The translations under genes and the position numbers were made by a program. This document shows positions 50,849-64,000 of a DNA stretch of 64,000 bases, one piece after another. The notes below the pieces were generated by a model. The model was not told where the DNA came from. It was given only the letters and a program-made list of their open reading frames with translations, and searched no databases. Positions within the stretch are counted from its first letter, which is position 1, and every line of letters starts with the position of its first letter. This DNA comes from Candidatus Aminicenantota bacterium. Its GTDB lineage: Bacteria; Acidobacteriota; Aminicenantia; Aminicenantales; Saccharicenantaceae. The DNA is taken from NCBI GenBank assembly GCA_026393975.1, contig JAPKZD010000025.1, positions 1 through 64,000 of the forward strand, written 5' to 3'.

Positions 50849-51919
50849 TTATGTTTCCATCGCTGTTTCTTCAACGCGGAAGTATCTCTTTTTGAAATAT
50901 AGCGCCACGTTCACCAGCCCGATAAGCACCGGCACTTCCACGAGCGGCCCGATGACCGCGGCGAACGCCACGCCCGAGTTAATGCCGAAGACGGCCACTG
51001 CGACGGCGATGGCCAGTTCGAAATTGTTGCTGGCCGCCGTAAAAGAGAGCGTCGCGGTGATCGGATACCCGGCCCCGATCCTCTTGCTCATGAAGAAGCT
51101 CACAAGAAACATCACCACGAAATAGATGAGGAGCGGAATAGCGATCCGGACAACATCGAGGGGTATCTTGACAATATACTCGCCCTTCAGGCTGAACATG
51201 ACAATAATGGTGAAAAGGAGTGCGATCAGCGTGATCGGGCTGATTCTTGGGATGAATTTCGTCTGGTACCATTCTTTGCCTTTGATCTTGATGAGGGTGA
51301 AGCGGGTGATCATCCCGGCCAGGAACGGAATGCCCAGGTAAATAAAAACGCTTTCCGCAATCTGGCCGATAGTGATGTTTACGGTACTACCTTTGAGGCC
51401 GAAGAGCGGCGGCAGGACGCTTATGAAAAACCAAGCGTAGACGCTGAAAAAGAGCACTTGAAATATGCTGTTGAAAGCCACCAGCCCCGCGGCGTATTCC
51501 GTATCACCCTTGGCTAGATCGTTCCAGACGATAACCATAGCGATACAGCGCGCCAGCCCGATCATGATCAAACCGACCATGTATTCGGGATACCCTCTGA
51601 GAAAGGTGATGGCCAGAAAAAACATCAATACGGGGCCCACGATCCAGTTCTGTACCAAGGAAAGGCCGAGCACCCTCCAATTTTTAAAGACATCGCCCAG
51701 TTCCTCATATTTAACTTTTGCCAGGGGCGGGTACATCATCAAGATAAGCCCGATGGCGATGGGGATGTTGGTGGTTCCCACGCTGAACTTAGCATTAAAC
51801 GAGGCCACTGCGCCGGGAATCAAATAACCGATAAGCACTCCCAGGGCCATAGCGGTAAAAATCCAGAGCGTGAGATAGCGATCAAGAAATGACAGTTTTT
51901 TTGATACGGATTCAGTCAT
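50849..51919 (-). CDS. arsB: ACR3-family arsenite efflux permease
   Basis: '[23 protein letters not shown]', '[44 protein letters not shown]'. Confidence 0.95.
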
Positions 51920-51960
51920 ATGAAATCTCTTTGACGATCATAATCGCTAACGACCTTCCT

Positions 51961-53811
51961 TTAGATTTCTCCTGAGTTCAACGCCGGCCCTTCGGGACAG
52001 CATTCCCTCTGGAACAACGCTTCCGCGACCTGTTTCAATCTCGGCAATCCGATGATCTCATCATCGAACATGGGGATCTTGAAGACGGGCAATTGGAAGA
52101 GTTTATTGGCGATCTCGAGGTAGTGCTGCTGCATCTCGGCTCTTCGGTGGAAGAAGTCCGAGTTCTTGTCGCCGTTCTCAAGCACGTTGTTCGCGATAAC
52201 CGCCTGAACGTCGATTCCGGCCAGGCTTAGATCATCCAGTGTTCGTTTGGCTTCGTGGATCGGCGTGTACTCGGGATAAAAGACAAGCATGAAGGCGCTA
52301 GTGGCGGGGTCTTTGAGCTTCCCAAGGAGGGACTCGAGCTTTCTTTGCGCCCTATCGGAGGCGCCTCCCTCCTTTTTGATTTGGACCATCAATTCCACCT
52401 GCCGGGCGTAATCATAGGGGAGCTCCAGGAGCCTGAGGGTGTGCCCTGTCGGCGCCGTGTCGAACACGATGTACTCGAAGTCGCCGTTTTCAACGACGCC
52501 CGCGAATTCTTCGAAGACGGCCATCTCTTCTGTGCAGGGCGACTCCAATTCCTCCTTGAGCGCGATGAGCATGTCGTCGGAATATCCCGACCGTACGGCG
52601 TCGTCGATGATCTTCTTCTTATATGTTTCCACGCTCTTCTTCTGATCGATGCGGGCCGCGCTCAGATAGGGCAGGGACTTTGTCTGCCCGATCGAGTCCC
52701 CAATCGGCTCGTCGAGCACCTGCCCGATGTGGGCCGCCGGGTCGGTCGTGACCAGAAGCGTCTTCTGCCGGTTGCCCGCCAGATGCGCCGCCACGGCGCA
52801 GGCGGTCACGGTCTTCCCCACGCCGCCCTTGCCGGTGATGATCACGATTCTCGTATCGCGTTTTTTTTGGATGATATGGGTTAGAGCCTCGCCGTCCGCG
52901 AACTGATCAAACGTCCCCGGCTGATGGAAGCCTTCCGTGACGGCGGTCTTTTTCCCCTCGAACACGACGCCGGCGAAGTCCGTGATGGCCGGCAGGCCCT
53001 TGATCTCGCCGCTTTGAAGAGTCACTCGACTCGAGGGATAGGGCAAGGCTTTTTCGATCATCCCGAGATAGCGTGCCTGCAGGGCAGACAGGTTGGCGTA
53101 GCGGCTATGGACGATTTCGTCGTCCGGGTAGATTCCGTTTATGATGACGCGGAAATTCCGTATGCCCAGCGTGTTCAGCTCGTCGCGGGCGCGCAGGGTC
53201 TCGGCCAAAGAGGTTTTTTCCGGCTTCAGGACGAGATAAAACGTAGTGCGGGAACCGTCCCGCATCGCGGCGATCGCCCGGTCGTATTTTTCCTTCGCGC
53301 CTTGAATGGACGACACCGGGCCGATACAGGTCTGCCCGGAGCCTTTCGCGCTTTCCTCGATGTGCTTAGACCAGTCCACCGGCAATTCCAGCAGGCGGAT
53401 CGTGTGGCCGGTGGGCGCCGTGTCGAAGACGACGAGATCGAATTCCTCGCTGACCAGAAAGTCGGTAAACCGGTCGAAGGCCGCGATCTCAGTGGTGCAG
53501 GCGCTTCGGAACTGCTCTTCGAGGACCTTCATGATGTCGTCGGGCATGACACCGCGCATCGGCCCGATGACCTTTTCTCGGTATTCCTCCGTGGCGGCAT
53601 CGGGATCGATGTCCATAGCGGAGAGATTAGCGATGATCGGTGTGACCGTATGCCCGATCCGCGTTTCGAAAATGTCTCCCAGGTTGCTGGCCGGGTCGGT
53701 CGAAATGATCAGGGTCTTTTTCCCCCGCATGGCGTTGTACACAGCGGTCGTGGCGGCCATCGTGGTTTTCCCCACGCCGCCCTTTCCCGAAAAAAACAGA
53801 AAATCAGTCAT
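51961..53811 (-). CDS. arsA: Arsenical pump-driving ATPase, two P-loop domains
   Basis: 'FSGKGGVGKTTMAA' and 'ITGKGGVGKTVTA'; two 'DTAPTGHT[IL]RLLELP'. Confidence 0.96.
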   Translation of the reverse strand: MTDFLFFSGKGGVGKTTMAATTAVYNAMRGKKTLIISTDPASNLGDIFETRIGHTVTPIIANLSAMDIDPDAATEEYREKVIGPMRGVMPDDIMKVLEEQFRSACTTEIAAFDRFTDFLVSEEFDLVVFDTAPTGHTIRLLELPVDWSKHIEESAKGSGQTCIGPVSSIQGAKEKYDRAIAAMRDGSRTTFYLVLKPEKTSLAETLRARDELNTLGIRNFRVIINGIYPDDEIVHSRYANLSALQARYLGMIEKALPYPSSRVTLQSGEIKGLPAITDFAGVVFEGKKTAVTEGFHQPGTFDQFADGEALTHIIQKKRDTRIVIITGKGGVGKTVTACAVAAHLAGNRQKTLLVTTDPAAHIGQVLDEPIGDSIGQTKSLPYLSAARIDQKKSVETYKKKIIDDAVRSGYSDDMLIALKEELESPCTEEMAVFEEFAGVVENGDFEYIVFDTAPTGHTLRLLELPYDYARQVELMVQIKKEGGASDRAQRKLESLLGKLKDPATSAFMLVFYPEYTPIHEAKRTLDDLSLAGIDVQAVIANNVLENGDKNSDFFHRRAEMQQHYLEIANKLFQLPVFKIPMFDDEIIGLPRLKQVAEALFQRECCPEGPALNSGEI

Positions 53812-54042
53812 CTATATCTCCTCATCTCCTACGCTTTCCAGCAGAGCATTCGCTAAATCGTTAATGTTCTTATTGGGAACGTCTTTTACGGTCCTGGCCA
53901 TCTCTAGCGCATCACGTATCTCTTCCACGGCAATCCCGAGTTCACGGCATCGTTTATAGTGATAGCGGAGACATGGAAAGCAATTTCCCGCCAGAGACGC
54001 GCCCACAGCCACGAGCTCTCTTGTCTTTTCATCCAGAGGCAT
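53812..54042 (-). CDS. Carboxymuconolactone decarboxylase (AhpD-like) family small protein
   Basis: 'LVAVGASLAGNCFPCLRYHYKRCRELGIAVEEIRDALEMA' CxxC and distal His. Confidence 0.85.
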   Translation of the reverse strand: MPLDEKTRELVAVGASLAGNCFPCLRYHYKRCRELGIAVEEIRDALEMARTVKDVPNKNINDLANALLESVGDEEI

Positions 54043-54073
54043 AGCGTCTCTCTGCTTGATAGAAATGATGAGG

Positions 54074-54292
54074 TCAGCCGCAACAGCCGGTTCCGCCCCC
54101 GCCGCAGCACCCGCCGGATGCCCCTCCGCCCCCGGTCTTCTTCCCTAAGAAATTCACCCCAAAAAACTGTTGGCGGACGTCTTCGGAGCCGCATTTCGGA
54201 CAGGTTGCTTTTGCGTTCTGTTTTTCCTCCAGCGTCATCCTTTTTTCGAAAACATGGGTGCACCGCCGGCAGAGATATTCATAGGTTGGCAT
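54074..54292 (-). CDS. FmdB-family zinc ribbon protein with Cys/Gly-rich tail
   Basis: 'MPTYEYLCRRCTHVFEKRMTLEEKQNAKATCPKCGSEDVRQQFFGVNF...GGCCGGGGTGCCG'. Confidence 0.85.
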   Translation of the reverse strand: MPTYEYLCRRCTHVFEKRMTLEEKQNAKATCPKCGSEDVRQQFFGVNFLGKKTGGGGASGGCCGGGGTGCCG

Positions 54293-54592
54293 TTAGATCA
54301 CCTCTTTTAGAAGTTCTTCATATTTTGGATATCGGCCTTTGATGACCAATTTTCCTTCGACGAGAGTGATGGGCAGCGATTCCTTTCCCTCGGACATGAG
54401 GATATTTTTAACGACAGGATTGTTCATGAACCGCTTGGGTTGTTGGTTGAGGGCGATCCTCTCCGCGGAGAATCCGGCCTTCTTGAGTTTCTGGATCGTA
54501 TCCTGCAAAGTCGCAAGGTCCGGATCAGGCGCGGGCCCGCATACGCCTGTTGGGCAACACAAGGGCGGCTCGTAAATTTCGATGATCTTCAT
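54293..54592 (-). CDS. arsD: Arsenic metallochaperone
   Basis: 'MKIIEIYEPPLCCPTGVCGPAPDPDLATLQDTIQKLKKAGFSAERIALNQQPKRF' with conserved CC...C. Confidence 0.95.
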   Translation of the reverse strand: MKIIEIYEPPLCCPTGVCGPAPDPDLATLQDTIQKLKKAGFSAERIALNQQPKRFMNNPVVKNILMSEGKESLPITLVEGKLVIKGRYPKYEELLKEVI

Positions 54593-54966
54593 GACATGCT
54601 CCTTGCGACAGCCATTTTGGTTTGACAGTCGCCGGCCTTTTCCTTCTTTCTCAGGAGGGCCAAATCATGTCGATAAACATCGCGACTTCTTAAAACACCG
54701 TGCACGAGCTCATCGACATACTTCAGTCTGGATGATCCGTTGAGCGAATAAAAAGACCACTGTGCGATTTTTCTGTCCTTTACAAGATCGGCATTTCTTA
54801 AATAGGCCAGGTGCCGCGATATTTTTGTCTGGGTCGTTTCGAGAATATCCCCAATGTCGCAGACGCAAAGCTCCCGCTCATAAAGCAGATTGATGATGCG
54901 CAGGCGTGTCTCATCGGTGAGGGCGTTGAGAACTTTCAAATAATCTTCCATATCAAAAGCCTCCAC
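54589..54966 (-). CDS. arsR: ArsR-family metalloregulator
   Basis: 'LTDETRLRIINLLYERELCVCDIGDILETTQTKISRHLAYLRNADLV'; ATGA overlap with arsD. Confidence 0.94.
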   Translation of the reverse strand: MEAFDMEDYLKVLNALTDETRLRIINLLYERELCVCDIGDILETTQTKISRHLAYLRNADLVKDRKIAQWSFYSLNGSSRLKYVDELVHGVLRSRDVYRHDLALLRKKEKAGDCQTKMAVARSMS

Positions 54967-55090
54967 TGGAGCGATTTACGCGGCTTTCATCCGAGGAGGA
55001 TCCTTGGCTGTCCTTGCTTCTCAGTTCAATCATGGAGCCTCTTCGTGTTAGAAGACCAGGCGTGCAAGATTCCAATTTATAAATAATAAG

Positions 55091-55106
55091 ATGCGTTCTA
55101 ACGCAT
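55091..55106. promoter_or_regulatory. Putative ArsR operator
   Basis: Perfect inverted repeat ATGCGTT-ct-AACGCAT upstream of arsR-arsD operon. Confidence 0.55.
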
Positions 55107-55180
55107 ATGCACATATACAATAATAAGCCTCGCCGCCGTATTTGTCAAGGAGTTGATTGAATTAGGGCCAGACGAACGAG

Positions 55181-55447
55181 TTACTCTTCGCGAAGCTTCC
55201 TTATGACTTCATTTATCGCGTCGATATCCGGAAAAGAGATGGCCGCTACAGGGCACAGGCCAAGGCACCCACTGCAGCCGACGATACAATTAAATGGACG
55301 CGTGACCTTGGCCCTATTGTTCACCTCATCCCAGGTATAAACGCCCTGCTGACAGAATTGAAAGCAGACCTGGCAACCGTTGCACTTCGACTCGTCGACT
55401 GACGGATACCAAGGTATTTTATCTCTTGGGATGGGCTTTGAAGGCAA
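55181..55447 (-). CDS. 4Fe-4S dicluster ferredoxin
   Basis: 'CNGCQVCFQFCQQGVY' and 'CSGCLGLCPVAAI'. Confidence 0.85.
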   Translation of the reverse strand: MPSKPIPRDKIPWYPSVDESKCNGCQVCFQFCQQGVYTWDEVNNRAKVTRPFNCIVGCSGCLGLCPVAAISFPDIDAINEVIRKLREE

Positions 55448-55513
55448 GTGAGCTTCTCCGTTCAGAAAGTACCCAATAATCGTGCAAAGCTTTACTCGGC
55501 AAGTTCTTCAATA

Positions 55514-55687
55514 TTATCCGCAGCAGGAATTACGCTTTTCTTTTGGAGAATCTTTGCCCTTATCGTCTTCTTTTTTTTCTTCCGGGATCTCTTCGATGAC
55601 AAAGCTGCCGCAACAGGGGCTCTTTTTCGTATTGTTGCGTCCGGTCAAGCGTGCGAATAGTCCCTTCTTTTCGTCTTCATTTTTCAT
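55514..55687 (-). CDS. Small CC-motif protein (57 aa), putative thiol/metalloid-binding
   Basis: MKNEDEKKGLFARLTGRNNTKKSPCCGSFVIEEIPEEKKEDDKGKDSPKEKRNSCCG*; below the 60-aa cut-off of the ORF track. Confidence 0.75.
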   Translation of the reverse strand: MKNEDEKKGLFARLTGRNNTKKSPCCGSFVIEEIPEEKKEDDKGKDSPKEKRNSCCG

Positions 55688-55733
55688 AATCCTGTTTCTC
55701 CTTGTTGTTCCATAATAAGATATTTTGATGGAT

Positions 55734-56627
55734 TTATGTCAGCATATTGAAAATCAGTCCAGACAGTACGGCCGAAATAAATACGATCACGACAAAAGCG
55801 ATAATGATCTTTTTCTTGAATATGCTGGCCAGCATGGTCAGTTCCGGGATGGCGACGCCGGCCCCGCTGATGATCAAGGCAATGACGGCGCCAATGCTCG
55901 CCCCCTTATTCATCATTGCCAGGCCGATGGGAATCGCCGATTCGACGCGAATATACAGCGGCAAGCCGATCAAGGCCACAATGATGACTGAAAATGGGTT
56001 TTTGGCTCCGGCCACTTTGGCCAGGAGGTCTTCAGGGAGATATCCGTAAATAGCCGCCCCGATCCCAACGCCGACGATCATGTAGACAAAGACCGACTTG
56101 AAATCTCCCCAGGCTTTTAGGAAAGAAGCTTTGAGACGGTTCTTGAACCCTTTAGGGACCTCCTGATTTAGTTCGGGACCGTCTCTTTTCAGTCGGACAT
56201 GTTTGACTTGATCGGACCAACCCATTTTTTCGAGGATGACCCCGAAGATAACGGCAAAAGCCGAGGTCAAGATGAGAAATCCCACGGCGACTTTCCAGCC
56301 CATAAAGGCGATGAGCAATGTAAAGACCAAAGGGTCCATCAACGGAGAAGAGATGACGAAAGACATTACGGTGCCGAAGGGGACTCCGGCCTGGAGGAAG
56401 ACGAGAGTCATCGGGACGGTGGAGCAGGCGCAAAAAGGCGTCACCGCCCCAAAAAGCACTCCCAGAATATTGCCCCAGAGGCCTTTGCCGGACATCCATT
56501 TCTTTATTTTGTCCTGCGAAATATACATGAAGGCCAAGGCCACAATCGTACTGATCCCAATAAACAGCACCGCAAGTTCGGCCATAATGGTCAAAAAATA
56601 CTTGATTGTCTCGATGAGCGTGTTCAA
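55734..56627 (-). CDS. ArsP-like/DUF318 permease (TTG start proposed)
   Basis: 'LFGAVTPFCACSTVPMTLVFLQAGVPFGTVMSFVISSPLMDPL', 'IGLPLYIRVESAIPIGLAMMNKGASIGAVIALIISGAG'. Confidence 0.85.
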   Translation of the reverse strand: MNTLIETIKYFLTIMAELAVLFIGISTIVALAFMYISQDKIKKWMSGKGLWGNILGVLFGAVTPFCACSTVPMTLVFLQAGVPFGTVMSFVISSPLMDPLVFTLLIAFMGWKVAVGFLILTSAFAVIFGVILEKMGWSDQVKHVRLKRDGPELNQEVPKGFKNRLKASFLKAWGDFKSVFVYMIVGVGIGAAIYGYLPEDLLAKVAGAKNPFSVIIVALIGLPLYIRVESAIPIGLAMMNKGASIGAVIALIISGAGVAIPELTMLASIFKKKIIIAFVVIVFISAVLSGLIFNMLT

Positions 56628-56703
56628 GACGCTGCTCTTTCCGGTTCTTTGACCTTCACGGGATCGACCTGTCCGCCCTTCCAAGTCAGCTCGGCGATGG
56701 CGT

Positions 56704-57183
56704 TCATGAGAACGATCTCCTACGGGTCGAGGGTAGGCTTTTCGCGCTCGCCACCTTGGGCGGTCGGGCTGCCGCAATCAGGAATCTCAGGGCGTCGGCA
56801 ATCATTTCAAGGGAACGGACATCCAGGTCCTTTAAGACATCATCGAGATAGGCAGCATAGTTCTCTGTGATCTTGGACGTAACGCTCTTCCCCCGGCTCG
56901 TTATTGCGACACAACAGACCCTTCCGTCGGCGCTCGAGCGCTGTCTTCGTGCGTAGCCCTTGCGCTCCAGCCGGTCGATGACCCTCGTGGCGCCGCTCTT
57001 CGTGAACTTGATTGCCTTCCCGACGTCTTGGATCGAGCTATTCTCCGTTCTCCGGATCTCGACCAAGGCCTGATACTCCATGAAGGAGAGCCCTTCACAG
57101 CAGTACCCGTCAAAAGCCCTATTCCCGAAAAACCAGGCTGCTTCCTGGAGCAGGTCGAGCAGTTCGTGCGTCTTCTCTTTCAT
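56704..57183 (-). CDS. MarR-family transcriptional regulator
   Basis: 'LSFMEYQALVEIRRTENSSIQDVGKAIKFTKSGATRVIDRLERKGYARRQRSSADGRVCCVAITSRG'. Confidence 0.9.
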   Translation of the reverse strand: MKEKTHELLDLLQEAAWFFGNRAFDGYCCEGLSFMEYQALVEIRRTENSSIQDVGKAIKFTKSGATRVIDRLERKGYARRQRSSADGRVCCVAITSRGKSVTSKITENYAAYLDDVLKDLDVRSLEMIADALRFLIAAARPPKVASAKSLPSTRRRSFS

Positions 57184-57202
57184 TCTGGAGACCACTTTTA
57201 TA

Positions 57203-57248
57203 TAGTTGACAAGGTCAACTAACATATCTAGAAAGGGTGACAATGTCA
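57203..57248. promoter_or_regulatory. Two tandem MarR operator-like palindromes
   Basis: TAGTTGAC-aag-GTCAACTA (57203-57221) and TGAC-aat-GTCA (57238-57248); centres 31 bp apart. Confidence 0.75.
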
Positions 57249-57386
57249 ACTAGATTGTGATTTAGGGCAGGTTCCCCTTCCCGGAGTTCTCTTCTGGCCT
57301 TCTGGGTCGCGTCGACGGACGGAACCAGGGGAAATATTCTCTGGAGATGGAGTTGAAGGGCGTCTATCGTTTCCGAAGTGCCAGAG

Positions 57387-58436
57387 TTAAAAAACGAGGT
57401 TAAACAAGAACCCTACGATCATGATCCCCGTTCCGACGATGCCGACGAAGATAAGGATCAGGGGCAGCTTCAGGACTTTTTTCAGAATGATCGTTTCCGG
57501 AAGAGACAGGCCGATGACGGACATCATGAAGGCCAAAGCCGTCCCAAGCGAGGCGCCTTTCTCGAGGAGGGCTTGGACGATGGGGATGATGCCGGCGGCA
57601 TTCGAATAGAGCGGGATGCCGATAAGGACGGAAACAGGGACGGACCACCAGGCCGACTTGCCCATGATCGCGGCCATGAAGTTCTGTGGCACATACCCGT
57701 GGACGGCGGAGCCGACGGCGATCCCGCCGATGATGAAAGGCCAAACCCGGCCGACGACGTCCTTGACGGCGGCAAGCCCGGCCGCGATCCGTTCTTGGAA
57801 CGGCGTCCGGCCGTTCTCGGAGGTCGCGTTCTGGGCCTTGATCTCATAGACCCAGGGTTCGACGAAACGTTCGAGCTTCAATCGGCCGATAGTCCAGCCC
57901 GCGGTTATGGCGATGATCAGTCCGGTGGAAACATAGAGGAGGGCCGTTTTCCAGCCGAACAGTCCGAAGAGAAGGACGACGGCGACCTCGTTGATCATAG
58001 GCGCGGCGATCAGGAACGAGAACGTCACGCCGAGCGGAATGCCGGCTTCGACGAAGCCCAGGAAAAGGGGAATGGCCGAGCATGAACAGAACGGCGTTAC
58101 GATACCCAAGGCGCCCGCCATGATGTTACCGACGAAGAGGGACTTGCCTTGGAGCAGCCGCCGCGTCCTTTCGGGTGAGAAATAGGTCCGGATAATGCCG
58201 ACCGCGAAGACGATCAGAACGAGGAGCATGAGGACCTTGGGAACCTCATAGAGAAAGAAGCGCAGCGTCTCGGTAAGACGCGACCCGGCGGGCATTCTCA
58301 AAATTCCGAAAACAGCGAGGTCTGCGATGCCCTTCAAGTGCAGATATAGGACGATCCAAAGCGGAAGCGATAATGCTACCCACCAGTTCCTGTTGTCAGC
58401 GCCTTTCCTTTTTATGGGGATGGAGTAATTTTCCAT
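57387..58436 (-). CDS. ArsP-like/DUF318 permease
   Basis: 'GALGIVTPFCSCSAIPLFLGFVEAGIPLGVTFSFLIAAPMINEVAVVLL', 'IGIPLYSNAAGIIPIVQALLEKGASLGTALAFMMSVIGLSLPE'. Confidence 0.88.
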   Translation of the reverse strand: MENYSIPIKRKGADNRNWWVALSLPLWIVLYLHLKGIADLAVFGILRMPAGSRLTETLRFFLYEVPKVLMLLVLIVFAVGIIRTYFSPERTRRLLQGKSLFVGNIMAGALGIVTPFCSCSAIPLFLGFVEAGIPLGVTFSFLIAAPMINEVAVVLLFGLFGWKTALLYVSTGLIIAITAGWTIGRLKLERFVEPWVYEIKAQNATSENGRTPFQERIAAGLAAVKDVVGRVWPFIIGGIAVGSAVHGYVPQNFMAAIMGKSAWWSVPVSVLIGIPLYSNAAGIIPIVQALLEKGASLGTALAFMMSVIGLSLPETIILKKVLKLPLILIFVGIVGTGIMIVGFLFNLVF

Positions 58437-58457: not shown

Positions 58458-58583
58458 ATATATGAACATATTAACATGTATTGTAATTAAAATCAAATTT
58501 GGTTGGCCCAATATCACCCACGCCAGGCAGAAAACTAGGCTTATACTTGACAAAACATGATATATATGAAAATATATTCATTC
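58458..58583. promoter_or_regulatory. Divergent promoter region with two related ArsR operator-like sites
   Basis: ATATATGAACATATTAACATGT (58458-58479) and ATATATGAAAATATATTCATTC (58562-58583; contains ATGAA-N6-TTCAT); TTGACA at 58547. Confidence 0.6.
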
Positions 58584-58593
58584 GAGGTTTAAA

Positions 58594-58968
58594 ATGAAAG
58601 AGATTATCAAGGCTTTTAAGGCTCTTTCCGATCCTACCCGCCTGAGGATTTTCCTCCTCCTCCTGGAAAAGGACCTCTGCGTTTGTGAGTTGACCTATGT
58701 CTTGGATATGTCGCAATCACGGGTTTCGCACCAGCTCAGGCTCCTAAGAGACGCGGACCTGGTGGAGGATAAGAGGGAGGGAAGGTGGATCATTTACACG
58801 ATCCCTCAGCGCACTAGAGAAGACCTCGAGCCTTTGCTTCGGCGGCTCTCCGGCCCCAATCCGGCTGAATCGAAGCTCCTTCCCCGAGATATCGATCGTC
58901 TCGATGTGTGTCTCCGGGAAAATCTCCGTAAGGGCCGCAAGGCGGAAGCGCATCAATCCTCGGTTTGA
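58594..58968 (+). CDS. arsR: ArsR-family regulator
   Basis: 'LSDPTRLRIFLLLLEKDLCVCELTYVLDMSQSRVSHQLRLLRDADLVEDKREGRWIIYTIP'. Confidence 0.94.
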   Translation: MKEIIKAFKALSDPTRLRIFLLLLEKDLCVCELTYVLDMSQSRVSHQLRLLRDADLVEDKREGRWIIYTIPQRTREDLEPLLRRLSGPNPAESKLLPRDIDRLDVCLRENLRKGRKAEAHQSSV

Positions 58969-59011: not shown

Positions 59012-59076
59012 ATGGACATCATAATATTGGGCCCGGGTTGCCCAGGGTGTTGAAAGCCTTGAAAGTGGGCGTATGA
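59012..59076 (+). pseudogene. Truncated CPxC mini-thioredoxin relic (or very short peptide)
   Basis: ATG..: MDIIILGPGCPGC* with SD-like ggggaga; -1 frame continues LKALKVGV* ending on the ATGATG of the radical SAM gene. Confidence 0.6.
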
Positions 59077-60398
59077 TGGGCGAAGGCGGTCGGGTCTATA
59101 GCGAAAAGGGTGAGATTGACGCGGTTCTCCGCCGGAGGGATCCCGACGAGTCTCGCAAAAAAACGTACCGGGTCGCGGTCGGGAAGGACGGTTGTCTGTC
59201 GATACCTCCCGAACTGGCCGGAGAGCTCGGCCTCACTCCGGATGTCCGGCTCGACTTCGTCTCCGACCACGGCCGCATCGAGATCCTGCCCAACATCCAC
59301 AGCCTGCGACGCCTCTATATCGAGCCCACCTCGCGTTGCAACCTCTCCTGCCGGACCTGCATTCGCAATACGTGGGAAGAACCGATGGGCGATATGGACA
59401 TGGGCGTCTTCGACCGGCTGGCCGGTCAACTCTCGCGCTTCCCCCATCTCGAGACGGTCATGTTCGGCGGCTTTGGCGAGCCGACGGCCCATCCCCGCAT
59501 CCTCGACATGGTCCGCGCCGTCAAGGCTTCGGGCCTGCGCGCCGAGATGACGACCAACGCGACGCTCCTCGACGACGCCCTGATCGACGGCCTGCTCCGC
59601 GAGCGTCTCGACACCCTCTGGATATCTCTCGACGGGACGACCGAAGAGAGCTTCGAATCGATCCGCGAGGGCGCGAGCTTCCCCCTCGTCCTCGAGAACG
59701 TCGAACGGCTCGGCCGGCGAAACGGCCGGGACGGCCACCGGATCGACATCGGCATCGCCTTCGTCGTCATGAAGACGAACCTCCACGACGTCAAGCACTT
59801 GGACCGCCTGGCCCGGTCCGTCGGGGCCCGACGCATCCTGGTAAGCCACGTCCTGCCGTACAGTGAGGCGATGGAAAAAGAAATGCTCTGCCTCCAGACG
59901 CTGACCCTCGAGACGTTCACCTTCGCCCCGGGCAAAACCGAGCTCAGCCTGCCCCGCATCGACGTCAACAACACGACCAAGGACACGATCTTTAGCCTGT
60001 TCCAGGGATTCGAGAACCTGACCTTCATGGGCAACAGGATCGCCGTCGACTCCCGTCGCTGCCGCTTCGTCCACGATCGCGCGTCCTTCGTCCGCTGGGA
60101 CGGAAGGGTCGGGCCCTGCATGGGGCTCCTCCATTCCCACCGGACCTACCTCTACGGGCTCGAACGGCGGGTCCGGTCTCACGCCTTCGGCGACGTGCGC
60201 GAGGGAGACCTCTTCGAGATCTGGAATTCGAAGGCCTACGTGGACTTCCGGGAGAAGGTCAAAGCCTTCGATTATTCTCCTTGCCACGTCTGCGGCGGGT
60301 GCTCGATGCTCGAGTCGAACGAAGAAGACTGCTATGGGAACACCTTTCCTGCGTGCGGTGGCTGCCTCTGGGCCCAGGGGGTCATCCAATGCCCGTAA
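59073..60398 (+). CDS. Radical SAM protein with AbrB-like N-terminus and Cys-rich SPASM-like C-terminus (resembles tungsten-oxidoreductase maturase type)
   Basis: 'LYIEPTSRCNLSCRTCIRNTWEEPMGDM' CxxxCxxC; C-terminal 'CHVCGGCSMLESNEEDCYGNTFPACGGCLWAQGVIQC'. Confidence 0.88.
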   Translation: MMGEGGRVYSEKGEIDAVLRRRDPDESRKKTYRVAVGKDGCLSIPPELAGELGLTPDVRLDFVSDHGRIEILPNIHSLRRLYIEPTSRCNLSCRTCIRNTWEEPMGDMDMGVFDRLAGQLSRFPHLETVMFGGFGEPTAHPRILDMVRAVKASGLRAEMTTNATLLDDALIDGLLRERLDTLWISLDGTTEESFESIREGASFPLVLENVERLGRRNGRDGHRIDIGIAFVVMKTNLHDVKHLDRLARSVGARRILVSHVLPYSEAMEKEMLCLQTLTLETFTFAPGKTELSLPRIDVNNTTKDTIFSLFQGFENLTFMGNRIAVDSRRCRFVHDRASFVRWDGRVGPCMGLLHSHRTYLYGLERRVRSHAFGDVREGDLFEIWNSKAYVDFREKVKAFDYSPCHVCGGCSMLESNEEDCYGNTFPACGGCLWAQGVIQCP

Positions 60399-60427
60399 GC
60401 CCGCTTATAGTCAACAGGAGGGAAACC

Positions 60428-60859
60428 GTGGAAAAGAAAACGATCCTCTTTATCTGCGTTCACAATTCTGCCCGATCCCAGATCGCCGAGGGCCTGGTCA
60501 ACGCCCTCTACGGAGAGCGGTTCGAGGCTGTGAGCGGCGGGACGATGGCCACGAGGGTCCATCCCGGGGCGATCAAGGCCATGGCCGAGATCGGCATCGA
60601 CATCAGCGGCCATCGCTCGAAGAGCATCGACGAGTTCGAAGGCAGACGGTTCGATTATGTCGTGATGGTCTGCGACGATTCCCAGACGGACTGTCCCTTT
60701 TTTCCCGGCGGTAAGGACTACATCCACCACGCCTTCGACGACCCTGCGGCCTGCACGGGAACGGACGAGGAAGTCCTGACCTGTTTCCGCCGCAGCCGCG
60801 ACGAGATCCACGCCTGGATCAGGGAGGCGTTCATTCAAGGGGAGAAGGAGAAACGATGA
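60428..60859 (+). CDS. arsC: Thioredoxin-type arsenate reductase (LMW-PTP fold)
   Basis: GTG start after aggaggg; 'ILFICVHNSARSQIAEGLVN', 'VMVCDDSQTDCPFFPGGKDYIHHAFDDPA'. Confidence 0.92.
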   Translation: MEKKTILFICVHNSARSQIAEGLVNALYGERFEAVSGGTMATRVHPGAIKAMAEIGIDISGHRSKSIDEFEGRRFDYVVMVCDDSQTDCPFFPGGKDYIHHAFDDPAACTGTDEEVLTCFRRSRDEIHAWIREAFIQGEKEKR

Positions 60860-61305
60860 GCGACGAGATCCTGCAGCTGGCGGTCGATAAATTCCTGTTC
60901 CGCTTTCCCTCCGACGTTCATTACAGCGAGGCCGGGATCTGGGTGAGATTCGAGGGGTCGCGGGCGCGCATCGGGCTTTCCGATTTTACCCAGCAAAGGA
61001 ACGGCGACGTGGCCTTCGCCGAGCCGAAAGAGGTGGGGAATCAGGTCCGGTTGGGGGACGAGGTGGCCGTCGTCGAGACGATCAAAGTCAACCTCAGTAT
61101 CCCCTCGCCCGTGGCAGGCAAGGTTATCGAAGTCAACAACGACCTCTTGACCGCTCCCGAGCTCGTCAACCAGGACCCCTACGGGAAGGGCTGGCTGGCC
61201 GTCCTCGAAGTCGAGGACGGCGAAGCGGCGCGCGGAGCTTTGAAGACGGCTGCCGGCTACCTGGCACTGGCCAAGGTCCAGGCGGAAGCAGAGATCCTGC
61301 GATGA
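60856..61305 (+). CDS. GcvH-like lipoyl-domain protein
   Basis: 'ARIGLSDFTQQRNGDVAFAEPKEVGNQVRLGDEVAVVETIKVNLSIPSPVAGKVIEVN'; lipoyl Lys retained in ETIKV. Confidence 0.92.
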   Translation: MSDEILQLAVDKFLFRFPSDVHYSEAGIWVRFEGSRARIGLSDFTQQRNGDVAFAEPKEVGNQVRLGDEVAVVETIKVNLSIPSPVAGKVIEVNNDLLTAPELVNQDPYGKGWLAVLEVEDGEAARGALKTAAGYLALAKVQAEAEILR

Positions 61306-61721
61306 GCGGAACGCGGCCCAAGATCCCCGTCGTCCCCTGCAGCGGGATCGGGAAAAGCCTCGGAGCCGCGGCCCGGGAAGCGGCCTTTGTCCTTGCCGAG
61401 GACCTCCGTCCCGACAAAACGAAAATCGTCGCCCTTTCCCTCCTCGTTTTGGGGGACGAAGAAGCACGGCGCGAAGTCGCGGGACACGAGGCCGTCGCCA
61501 TCGACGGCTGTAAGCTCGAGTGCGCCGCTAAAGGGCTAGCTTGTTCGGGCGCCTCAAAGATCCACAAAGTCGCCGTCTTCGATGTCGTCCGGCGCCATCG
61601 CGGCCTCAAACCCGAGGGGGTCTGCGACCTCAACGAGGACGGTCTGAGGCTGGCCCGGGCGACGGCCGATGAGGCCGCGAAGATCGTCGATAACGTCGAC
61701 GCGGAGGGCGGCCATGCCTGA
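61302..61721 (+). CDS. DGC-domain putative zinc-binding protein (1)
   Basis: 'VPCSGIGKSLG', 'AIDGCKLECA'; overlaps gcvH-like stop. Confidence 0.82.
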   Translation: MSGTRPKIPVVPCSGIGKSLGAAAREAAFVLAEDLRPDKTKIVALSLLVLGDEEARREVAGHEAVAIDGCKLECAAKGLACSGASKIHKVAVFDVVRRHRGLKPEGVCDLNEDGLRLARATADEAAKIVDNVDAEGGHA

Positions 61722-62406
61722 CCTGCCGAGAAAGAAAATCGGTCTGATCGCCTGCTCCGGCGAAGAGCTCGCCGAGGGCACGGTGACCCGAAGGGCCGTC
61801 CGGAAAGTGCTCGAGACTCTCCGGCCCGACGACACCGTAACGCTGTGCCTGCCGCTGTTCCTTGCGGGAGGCGAGGGAGAACGGGCCTTCGCCCGCCACT
61901 ATCCGACCATCGCCGTCGACGGGTGCGATAAACGGTGCGCCGCCCTGGCGACGGAGAAGTATAGCGCCAAGCCGGCCGCGAGCATCGTCGTGAACGAGAC
62001 TGCCGACGCCGCCGAATGCCATGATATCGGCACCGCCCGCCATTTGAACGAGGCGGGGATGCAGTTCGCCGATTCCGTTGCGCGGCTCATCGCCGAGGAA
62101 ACAGACAGGCTCCTAAAAAAGCCACGACGAAAAACGTCCGGATTAGCGGCCGATTTCGGCGGTTGCAGCTGTAGCTCCGGCCTTCCCTCGGGAACGGTGC
62201 GCATCCTCGGTCGGGCGACGCGAATCGCCGGGCTTCCTCTCATTCTCGCGCAATTCAGGGACCAGGAGAGAGGGCCGGACCAAAAAACGGCCGCGGCTCT
62301 TCTGGAGGCCGCGAAGATTTATAACGAGGTTCCGGATAGTCAGCAGCAAGCCTGGAAGGAAGCGCTGTTCCTGGAATACGCCCAGTTTCTCAAGGAGAAA
62401 GACTGA
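61714..62406 (+). CDS. DGC-domain putative zinc-binding protein (2) with C-terminal CSCSSG extension
   Basis: 'GLIACSGEELAEGTVTRRA', 'VDGCDKRCAA', C-terminal 'GGCSCSSGLPSG'. Confidence 0.82.
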   Translation: MPDLPRKKIGLIACSGEELAEGTVTRRAVRKVLETLRPDDTVTLCLPLFLAGGEGERAFARHYPTIAVDGCDKRCAALATEKYSAKPAASIVVNETADAAECHDIGTARHLNEAGMQFADSVARLIAEETDRLLKKPRRKTSGLAADFGGCSCSSGLPSGTVRILGRATRIAGLPLILAQFRDQERGPDQKTAAALLEAAKIYNEVPDSQQQAWKEALFLEYAQFLKEKD

Positions 62407-62873
62407 TGGCACGAACGGAGATCTATACAGCCTCAGTCGCCTGGACAGGTGGCCACCGGGGACACCTGAAGCTCGGCAACGGGCCCGAGATGGACTTTTC
62501 CGCGCCGCCGTCTTCGCATGGCGAAGCGGGCGTCCTGACTCCTGAAGATGCGTTCGTCGGCGCCGTCAACACGTGCGTCATGCTGATGTTCATATGGGCG
62601 GCCGAGCGCTTCCGGCTGGACCTTGTCTCTTATGAGTGCCGGGCGGAGGGAACGAAGCTTATCGAGCTCGATAGAACCGAGATCTTCACCCGGGTTGTCC
62701 TGAAACCTCGGATCACCGTGCGCGTTGGCAACGAGCTCCCCGAGGCCGTTGAGAAGCGGGTTCGCCGCTCGCTCGTATCTGCGCAAAAGTTCAGTCTTGT
62801 CGCCAACTCCGTCAAGAGCGAGGTTGCTATCGAACCGGAGATCTTTTTAGAAACCCACCCTGGCGTGAAATGA
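62406..62873 (+). CDS. OsmC-family protein
   Basis: 'APPSSHGEAGVLTPEDAFVGAVNTCVMLMFIWAAERFRLDLVSYECRAEG'. Confidence 0.85.
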   Translation: MARTEIYTASVAWTGGHRGHLKLGNGPEMDFSAPPSSHGEAGVLTPEDAFVGAVNTCVMLMFIWAAERFRLDLVSYECRAEGTKLIELDRTEIFTRVVLKPRITVRVGNELPEAVEKRVRRSLVSAQKFSLVANSVKSEVAIEPEIFLETHPGVK

Positions 62874-62885
62874 TGAGGTCATAAG

Positions 62886-63128
62886 ATGGAAATCAAGGTC
62901 CTGGGCCCGGGCTGCCCGAAGTGTGGAGAGGTCGAAAAACGCGTGAAGTTCGCGCTCGCCGAACTTAAAGTCGCCGCCGATGTCGAGAAGGTTACCGACA
63001 TCAAGACGATGATGTCCTACGGCATCCTGGCGACTCCCGGCTTGGTCATCAACGGCAAAATCAAATGCGCAGGCCGTATCCCGCGTCCCGAGGAGATCAA
63101 TGCCTGGATCCAGGAGGCCGCCGCCTGA
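62886..63128 (+). CDS. Thioredoxin-fold redox-active disulfide protein (CPKC)
   Basis: 'MEIKVLGPGCPKCGEVEKRVKFALAELKVAADVEKVTDIKTMMSYGILATPGLVINGKI'. Confidence 0.92.
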   Translation: MEIKVLGPGCPKCGEVEKRVKFALAELKVAADVEKVTDIKTMMSYGILATPGLVINGKIKCAGRIPRPEEINAWIQEAAA

Positions 63129-63162
63129 TGAGCGCGGTCCAAACCCAAAGGTGAAGTAGCGA

Positions 63163-63645
63163 ATGGCTTTTGCTGCGGTGATCTGGGGCGTTGCGGGTGT
63201 AAGCCTTATTCTATCCTGGGCAAAAAGCCGGGAAAAGACGCGGGAAGCCCTCCGCTTTTTCTGGCGGGCATTTCTGTCCCTGGCTCCGTCCATCGTCGCA
63301 ATTATCTGGACGATCGGTTTTATCCTAACATTCCTGCCCTCAGGGTTCGTATTGAATACAATCGGCCGGAACGCGGGAATCATGGGAGTCGTCATAGCCG
63401 CCGCATTCGGCTCTATCTTCCTCATCCCGGCCTTCATCGCCTTCCCCCTGGCCGCGTCCTTTCTCAGGCAGGGGGCGGATGTCCGGGCCATCGCCGCGTT
63501 CGTCACTACTCTGGTCATGGTCGGCGTGCTCACGGCTCCCCTCGAAGTGAAGTTCTTCGGCAAGAGATTCACCCTCTGGAGGAACACCCTCAGCTTCGTC
63601 ATGGCCTTGGTCATCGCCTTCGTCATGGGGGAGGTCCTGAGATGA
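63163..63645 (+). CDS. Half-size permease (DUF318/ArsP-like, first half)
   Basis: 4-5 TM helices; overlaps next half by ATGA. Confidence 0.75.
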   Translation: MAFAAVIWGVAGVSLILSWAKSREKTREALRFFWRAFLSLAPSIVAIIWTIGFILTFLPSGFVLNTIGRNAGIMGVVIAAAFGSIFLIPAFIAFPLAASFLRQGADVRAIAAFVTTLVMVGVLTAPLEVKFFGKRFTLWRNTLSFVMALVIAFVMGEVLR

Positions 63646-64000
63646 AGATCAAAGCCGTGCCGGCGATTCTAGCGGTTCTGGCGACTGCCACGGTGCTCGT
63701 CTGGGCGATGCGGCCCGATAAGGCGATCGCCGTCCTGTTCGTTTCCAAGGATTACCTCTTGGAGATGATCTCCATTCTCCCGCCGGTCCTCATCCTCTGC
63801 GGATTGTTCGACGCCTGGGTCCCGAGACGGACAATTGAACAGCTCATGGGCGATGCTTCGGGAATCAAAGGGACATCCATCGCCTTCCTGTTGGGCACGG
63901 TAGCTATGGGTCCCTTGTACGCCGCTTTCCCCATCGGAAAGTCTCTCCTCGATAAGGGCGCGAGCCTCTATAACGTCGCCGTCTTCCTCTGCGTCTGGGC
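63642..64000 (+). CDS. Half-size permease (second half, runs off window)
   Basis: 'MKIKAVPAILAVLATATVLVWAMRPDKAIAVLF...GLFDAWVPRRTIEQLMGDASGIKGTSIAFLLGTVAMGPLYAAFPIGKSLLDKGASLYNVAVFLC'. Confidence 0.75.
   Translation, partial: MKIKAVPAILAVLATATVLVWAMRPDKAIAVLFVSKDYLLEMISILPPVLILCGLFDAWVPRRTIEQLMGDASGIKGTSIAFLLGTVAMGPLYAAFPIGKSLLDKGASLYNVAVFLCVW

Follow-up and report, generated by a model that had tools for sequence, protein, structure and literature searches.

A predicted lipoyl carrier paired with DGC proteins in arsenic-resistance operons

Arsenite is toxic largely through its capture of lipoyl dithiols. We analysed the first 64,000 nucleotides (hereafter the window) of contig JAPKZD010000025.1 (C24; 145,567 bp, in a genome of 2.95 Mb) from a Candidatus Aminicenantota bacterium, where an operon with arsenic-resistance (ars) genes encodes a GcvH-like lipoyl carrier followed by two proteins of the DGC family. 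This gene trio recurs in both bacteria and archaea, and its reading as a system with its own lipoyl carrier is well supported. Several described systems resemble it in part. The ArsEFG system of aromatic-arsenical resistance presumably shares with it an operon containing an MTH895/ArsE-family mini-thioredoxin and a CcdA-like membrane protein; however, the CcdA protein of this locus reaches 46 bits against an ArsG cut-off of 200, and we know of no lipoyl or DGC part in ArsEFG. The glycine cleavage H protein shares the PF01597 fold family and the lipoyl lysine, but the GcvH-like protein of the window falls below the NCBIfam GcvH cut-offs (108.4 against 115.85 and 114.9 against 117), belongs to a separate clade and does not adjoin gcvP or gcvT. 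The sHdr pathway of sulfur oxidation likewise has its own GcvH-like lipoyl carrier with a role separate from glycine cleavage, LbpA, and its gene cluster includes a lipoate ligase, an HdrA-related protein and an ArsR-type regulator (PMC6067878, PMC10332631); arsenic is not mentioned in these two main papers. In contrast, the window operon has DGC proteins and OsmC with arsenic export genes around them, and a second form of the system (type II, below) has just an HdrA N-terminal-like domain. Membership of sHdr by gene content (hdrC1B1A-hypC2B2 next to lbpA) was rejected, since all genes of the window operon are assigned and none is HdrB or HdrC; DsrE and TusA are likewise absent from it. Finally, Ohr/OsmC peroxidases share the PF02566 fold and a cysteine at the peroxidatic position with the OsmC-like protein of the system, and the reductants of Ohr are lipoylated proteins (PMC5962072). 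The system proteins nevertheless have serine in place of the resolving cysteine and conserve a different second cysteine; they lack the two catalytic cysteines of an Ohr peroxidase, and this identity was rejected.

The GcvH-related protein NF045810, known from selenoprotein neighbourhoods, is another GcvH-like paralog and in one case lies near ArsR (L246). However, the system proteins score only 32-54 bits against its cut-off of 150 (47.7 for the window protein, 32-54 for five others) and fall in a different clade. The Tso families also stay under their cut-offs in the window operon (TsoR 41.8/115, TsoB 83.7/805, TsoX 22.8/52), and membership of NF045810/Tso was rejected on these scores. NF045810 and the Tso families appear to stem from Haft and Tolstoy 2025. 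One of four NF045810 loci (L248, 2395-15993, Thermodesulfobacteriota) contains three GcvH-like genes, one of them NF045810, together with two DGC pairs, ArsM-like methyltransferase genes and DUF169. Its DGC pairs suggest that NF045810 and the system may be relatives, L248 being possibly a larger relative of the system. Since this locus combines DGC pairs with ArsM-like genes, Haft and Tolstoy 2025 may also mention a related cluster, and the claim to novelty is most at risk there. A literature search that did not take in that paper found none combining lipoyl/GcvH, DGC and arsenic, and the gene set is apparently undescribed so far.

The GcvH-like + DGC + DGC set was found at 42 loci from Acidobacteriota, Chloroflexota, Myxococcota, Desulfuromonadaceae, Bacillota and Bathyarchaeota, six phyla in all. 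An earlier note on this DNA, written from the sequence alone, had named beforehand a lack of conserved linkage in other genomes as grounds for abandoning its proposal; the linkage is there, and the proposal survives on this point. A scan of genome contigs with DGC protein 2 (DGC2) gave 21 loci in these same six groups, while a class-wide search with the GcvH-like protein added seven further genomes, some overlapping the DGC2-scan set. Sampling free of system-query bias, in which the DGC family was collected from 396 Acidobacteriota and 391 Clostridia-class genomes (the class of Sinanaerobacter), showed a GcvH-like gene at every tandem DGC locus that did not run into a contig edge. Across the 42 loci the GcvH-like gene is a same-strand neighbour of the DGC pair in 40, and the remaining two lack it at a contig edge. 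Strict ars genes, defined as ACR3, ArsP, ArsC, ArsA or ArsD within about 10 kb, occur near 31 of the 42 (ACR3 near 23, ArsC near 12). None occurs near 20 canonical GcvH loci, all from one class (Fisher p = 1.8e-8, taking loci as independent though related genomes are not), or near 13 further canonical GcvH loci of the carrier genomes (0/33 overall). Single DGC genes in this sampling never had a GcvH-like neighbour, and 11/20 have strict ars genes nearby, often in Trx3-ArsP-ArsR or ACR3 clusters (L108-L113, L117, L205, L208), a pattern that may extend the arsenic link to the entire DGC family. Plasmid carriage was considered and rejected, as DGC2 has no match in PLSDB.

The conserved core is narrower than the lipoyl-centred metalloid pathway of the earlier note, whose lipoyl carrier and link to arsenic genes stand; the lipoyl lysine is invariant, and genes for lipoate-protein ligase (LplA; five loci) or dihydrolipoamide dehydrogenase (Lpd; six loci) are present in some cases. 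That note had also counted a radical SAM protein, ArsC and a split permease as parts of the system, the permease as its exporter. These three are optional accessories: relatives of the radical SAM gene exceed 200 bits in 13/42 loci, mostly Acidobacteriota, on which ground it was rejected as a core part, and the exporter commonest near the system loci is ACR3, encoded here outside the window. The features of the locus, with families called from Pfam and NCBIfam profile scores, are as follows.

58564..58581, + strand: operator-like inverted repeat ATATGAAAATATATTCAT, 5' of arsR
58594..58968, + strand: ArsR/SmtB repressor (PF01022; NF033788, 97 bits)
59012..59053, + strand: start fragment of a CPxC thioredoxin, MDIIILGPGCPGC, then a stop; its sequence resembles the start of the thioredoxin at 62886
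59073..60398, + strand: radical SAM/SPASM protein, nearest to TIGR04317 (W-cofactor maturase), below cut-off
60428..60859, + strand: ArsC, arsenate reductase of the thioredoxin-coupled, low-molecular-weight-phosphatase type (PF01451; TIGR02691, 115 bits, cut-off 174)
60856..61305, + strand: GcvH-like lipoyl carrier, core, lipoyl lysine K77 (PF01597, 1.2e-30)
61302..61721, + strand: DGC protein 1 (DGC1), core (PF08859)
61714..62406, + strand: DGC protein 2, core, with an optional C-terminal domain containing CxC (PF08859)
62406..62873, + strand: OsmC-like protein, core of type I (PF02566)
62886..63128, + strand: CPxC mini-thioredoxin, MTH895/ArsE family (TIGR00412, 101.8 bits, cut-off 62)
63163..63645, + strand: ArsP_1-type half permease 1 (PF03773, 39 bits, over cut-off)
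63642..64000, + strand: ArsP_1-type half permease 2 (PF03773); the gene ends at contig position 64157
contig 64171-64479, beyond the window edge: small ferredoxin
contig 64472-64915, beyond the window edge: secreted-type thioredoxin
contig 64927-65616, beyond the window edge: CcdA/DsbD membrane protein
contig 65639-66688, beyond the window edge: ACR3 arsenite exporter (470 bits, cut-off 282.8)

Each named gene has an open reading frame at these positions and a confirmed family call, including the eight consecutive overlapping plus-strand genes of the earlier note, whose stop-start overlaps measure -4, -4, -8, -1 and -4 bp just as claimed. DGC1 and DGC2 pass the PF08859 gathering threshold with 46 and 57 bits against 27. 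The span once given for the operon, 59012-64000, does hold these genes, but no gene starts at 59012; from ArsR at 58594 to the end of ACR3 at contig position 66688 the genes form one co-directional ars operon. It passes the window edge without a clear break and is followed by a murJ-like gene and then unrelated genes; a terminator scan of the operon gave matches not above shuffles. The ArsR protein has a CVC metalloid-binding-type motif (DLCVCEL), and ArsC, which opens with GTG behind AGGAGG, shows a CX5R loop and a CX6C pair, although its score falls short of the cut-off for the pI258-type arsenate reductase equivalog. The two permease halves had been taken for the pieces of one split protein; both align to the same first part of PF03773 and are therefore paralogous half-proteins, not N- and C-terminal halves, and the pair is found again in L042, L044, L059 and L062. 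The fragment at 59012-59053, immediately in front of the radical SAM gene, is probably left over from an ancestral arrangement of ArsR and thioredoxin. A selenocysteine reading of its TGA was rejected, as a second stop follows two codons on. The palindrome ATATGAAAATATATTCAT occurs once in the window and once in the 2.95-Mb genome with up to one mismatch allowed, and among all fetched loci exact matches lie only before the same operon within the genus, immediately 5' of the radical SAM gene in L038 as well as L040, and close to ArsR in L041; a version with one mismatch was identified by eye in L039. Because the site is unique in the genome and precedes the operon in congeners, common control of the operon by ArsR is likely.

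Several features separate the carrier from glycine cleavage. The lipoyl lysine is present in 34/34 aligned system carriers, which suggests that the protein is lipoylated. In three trees these carriers form a single clade, set against canonical GcvH from the same class (support 100/99), the other GcvH proteins encoded in the carrier genomes (99/89) and NF045810 (100/99). Among five further system proteins none exceeds the TIGR00527 cut-off, and that of L063 barely exceeds NF002270 (117.4 against 117). In the genome of the window, glycine decarboxylase (GDC-P) adjoins the other GcvH, on contig C19; LipA and a lipoyl ligase-type gene are also present there. No glycine decarboxylase over cut-off was found in Clostridium tepidiprofundi, Sinanaerobacter or an Anaerolineae metagenome-assembled genome (G491, G494, G497), in which the system protein is the sole full-length GcvH; this absence could reflect incompleteness in the Anaerolineae genome, whereas the other two are isolate assemblies. 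Glycine cleavage thus cannot be the role of the system protein in these three genomes, and this role was rejected for the system on these grounds together with the separate clade and the place of GDC-P beside the other GcvH.

The system exists in two forms, which show zero overlap among the 42 loci. Type I (27 loci, including the window operon) consists of GcvH-like, DGC1, DGC2 and OsmC, while type II (15 loci) consists of an HdrA N-terminal-like protein (HdrA-N), a ferredoxin, three DGC proteins and GcvH-like, without OsmC; HdrA-N and ferredoxin are present in all 15. The type II HdrA-like protein matches solved HdrA with E = 4e-4. Bacterial type II loci encode the third DGC and the GcvH-like protein as a single fusion (11 open reading frames), and Pfam finds both domains within one protein in Clostridium tepidiprofundi; a structure model of the DGC-GcvH fusion was too poor for use, with a predicted local distance difference test (pLDDT) score of 58. 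The DGC proteins carry their conserved cysteines in CSG and DGCxxxCA motifs. In DGC1 three are near-invariant (38-39 of 39 aligned sequences; C13 near-invariant, C70 and C74 invariant), and in DGC2 four (C14, C45, C71, C75) are present in 35-36 of 36, the exception being a truncated row. As(III) favours coordination by three thiols, and the three to four conserved cysteines per DGC protein match this preference. The AlphaFold model of DGC2 has a pLDDT of 89.9; sequence and fold searches of the PDB gave nothing with E < 0.03 and no convincing structural relative. The system OsmC proteins retain the first catalytic cysteine (C57, 28/28) and an extra one (C78, 27/28), with serine at the resolving position; the one row with a resolving cysteine belongs to an additional, separate OsmC paralog of L101, and the PDB relatives of OsmC keep that cysteine.

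Taken together, we lean slightly towards the view that this is a widely transferred, unrecognised module in which a protein-bound lipoyl arm acts as the cofactor for converting arsenic (or thioarsenic) and the DGC proteins are its dedicated enzymes. A more specific proposal, to which we give a little less than even credence, is a lipoyl-dependent arsenic-handling module within an ArsR-controlled ars operon, whose GcvH arm and DGC proteins deliver arsenic to the exporter. The dedicated GcvH-like protein would bear lipoate on its invariant lysine, and the arm, as a dithiol, would bind trivalent arsenic or give electrons to it, shuttling among cysteine sites of the two DGC proteins as docking and transfer partners. 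Whether it enters as As(III) or is the product of ArsC, arsenic might in this way be kept from other lipoyl enzymes and handed to ACR3 (or an ArsP-type exporter), with lipoyl and DGC thiols re-reduced by Lpd, thioredoxin/CcdA or ferredoxin. The exchange of OsmC (type I) for HdrA-N, ferredoxin and a third DGC (type II) suggests that these are alternative redox partners. We infer lipoylation itself, As(III) binding, the substrate, the chemistry, the direction of transfer and the roles of OsmC and HdrA-N. Several points weigh against the arsenic-delivery proposal: a simple chaperone would have no use for the several redox proteins of the module, the DGC cysteines could instead be sites for Zn or Fe-S, many of the 42 loci are from metagenome-assembled genomes, and 11 of them have no strict ars gene in the visible stretch, although 7 of these stretches are shorter than 12 kb. 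In addition, sulfane sulfur can also be sensed by ArsR-family repressors, as described for sHdr (PMC12423496).

The best surviving alternative, which we consider unlikely but still worth serious attention, is that the lipoyl protein relays electrons instead of carrying arsenic, and passes them from NADH, thioredoxin or ferredoxin to an arsenic-reducing or thiol-repair step at ArsC, OsmC or DGC. Lpd lies directly upstream in L047, L051, L059-L061 and L200, all type II loci pair HdrA-N with ferredoxin, the window operon has thioredoxin and CcdA genes, and Ohr is known to be reduced by lipoylated proteins. However, the system OsmC lacks the resolving cysteine used by lipoyl-reduced Ohr, type II keeps GcvH-like and DGC without any OsmC, and ArsC is present near fewer than a third of the loci. 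A role of the module in sulfane sulfur transfer, like that of LbpA in the sHdr pathway, is rather improbable; the sulfur might then come from thioarsenates, for example, and thioarsenic chemistry in sulfidic anoxic habitats would account for the ars linkage. The parallel in GcvH-like carrier, HdrA-related protein, lipoate ligase and ArsR-type regulator is close, but the fully annotated window operon has none of HdrB, HdrC, DsrE and TusA, and the neighbours are arsenic exporters, ArsA, ArsD and ArsM. Lipoyl enzymes are classical As(III) targets, and the GcvH-like protein might be a sacrificial lipoyl domain or a shield for such enzymes; the invariant lysine would fit, but paired DGC proteins, fusions and HdrA-N would be left unexplained, and we give this idea very little weight. 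Least credible of all, and strongly disfavoured by the counts, is a passenger GcvH with thiol-stress genes that settled in ars islands, where gene accumulation is indeed typical, since one gene set recurs in six phyla with a single carrier clade, fusions, two exclusive forms and 0/33 canonical GcvH genes near ars.

If the lipoyl-cofactor view is true, this would be the third dedicated use of protein-bound lipoate outside 2-oxoacid metabolism, after glycine cleavage and sHdr sulfur oxidation. A dedicated lipoyl carrier in arsenic-resistance operons would make a tool of arsenic's textbook target. It would also assign a function to the DGC family, whose only annotation is putative zinc-binding, and to numerous GcvH-like genes now labelled as glycine cleavage. 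The system is testable in three named Bacillota isolates that carry it, Clostridium tepidiprofundi, Lucifera butyrica and Sinanaerobacter chloroacetimidivorans.

Other observations concern the surroundings of the module. The radical SAM/SPASM protein scores 306 bits against the TIGR04317 cut-off of 380, and tungsten aldehyde oxidoreductase-like genes lie near the module in Chloroflexota (L047, L052). DUF169 (PF02596) genes stand immediately 3' of the module in distant lineages (L044, 11867-12631; L056, 4803-5549). A Bathyarchaeota locus (L165, G503) has two adjoining GcvH-like genes of another clade, with no DGC in the visible stretch. In the window itself, a second ars island occupies the minus strand at 50876-58433, back to back with the operon, and encodes ACR3, ArsA, an AhpD-like protein, an FmdB zinc ribbon, ArsD, ArsR, a ferredoxin, an ArsP permease, MarR and a second ArsP-like permease.

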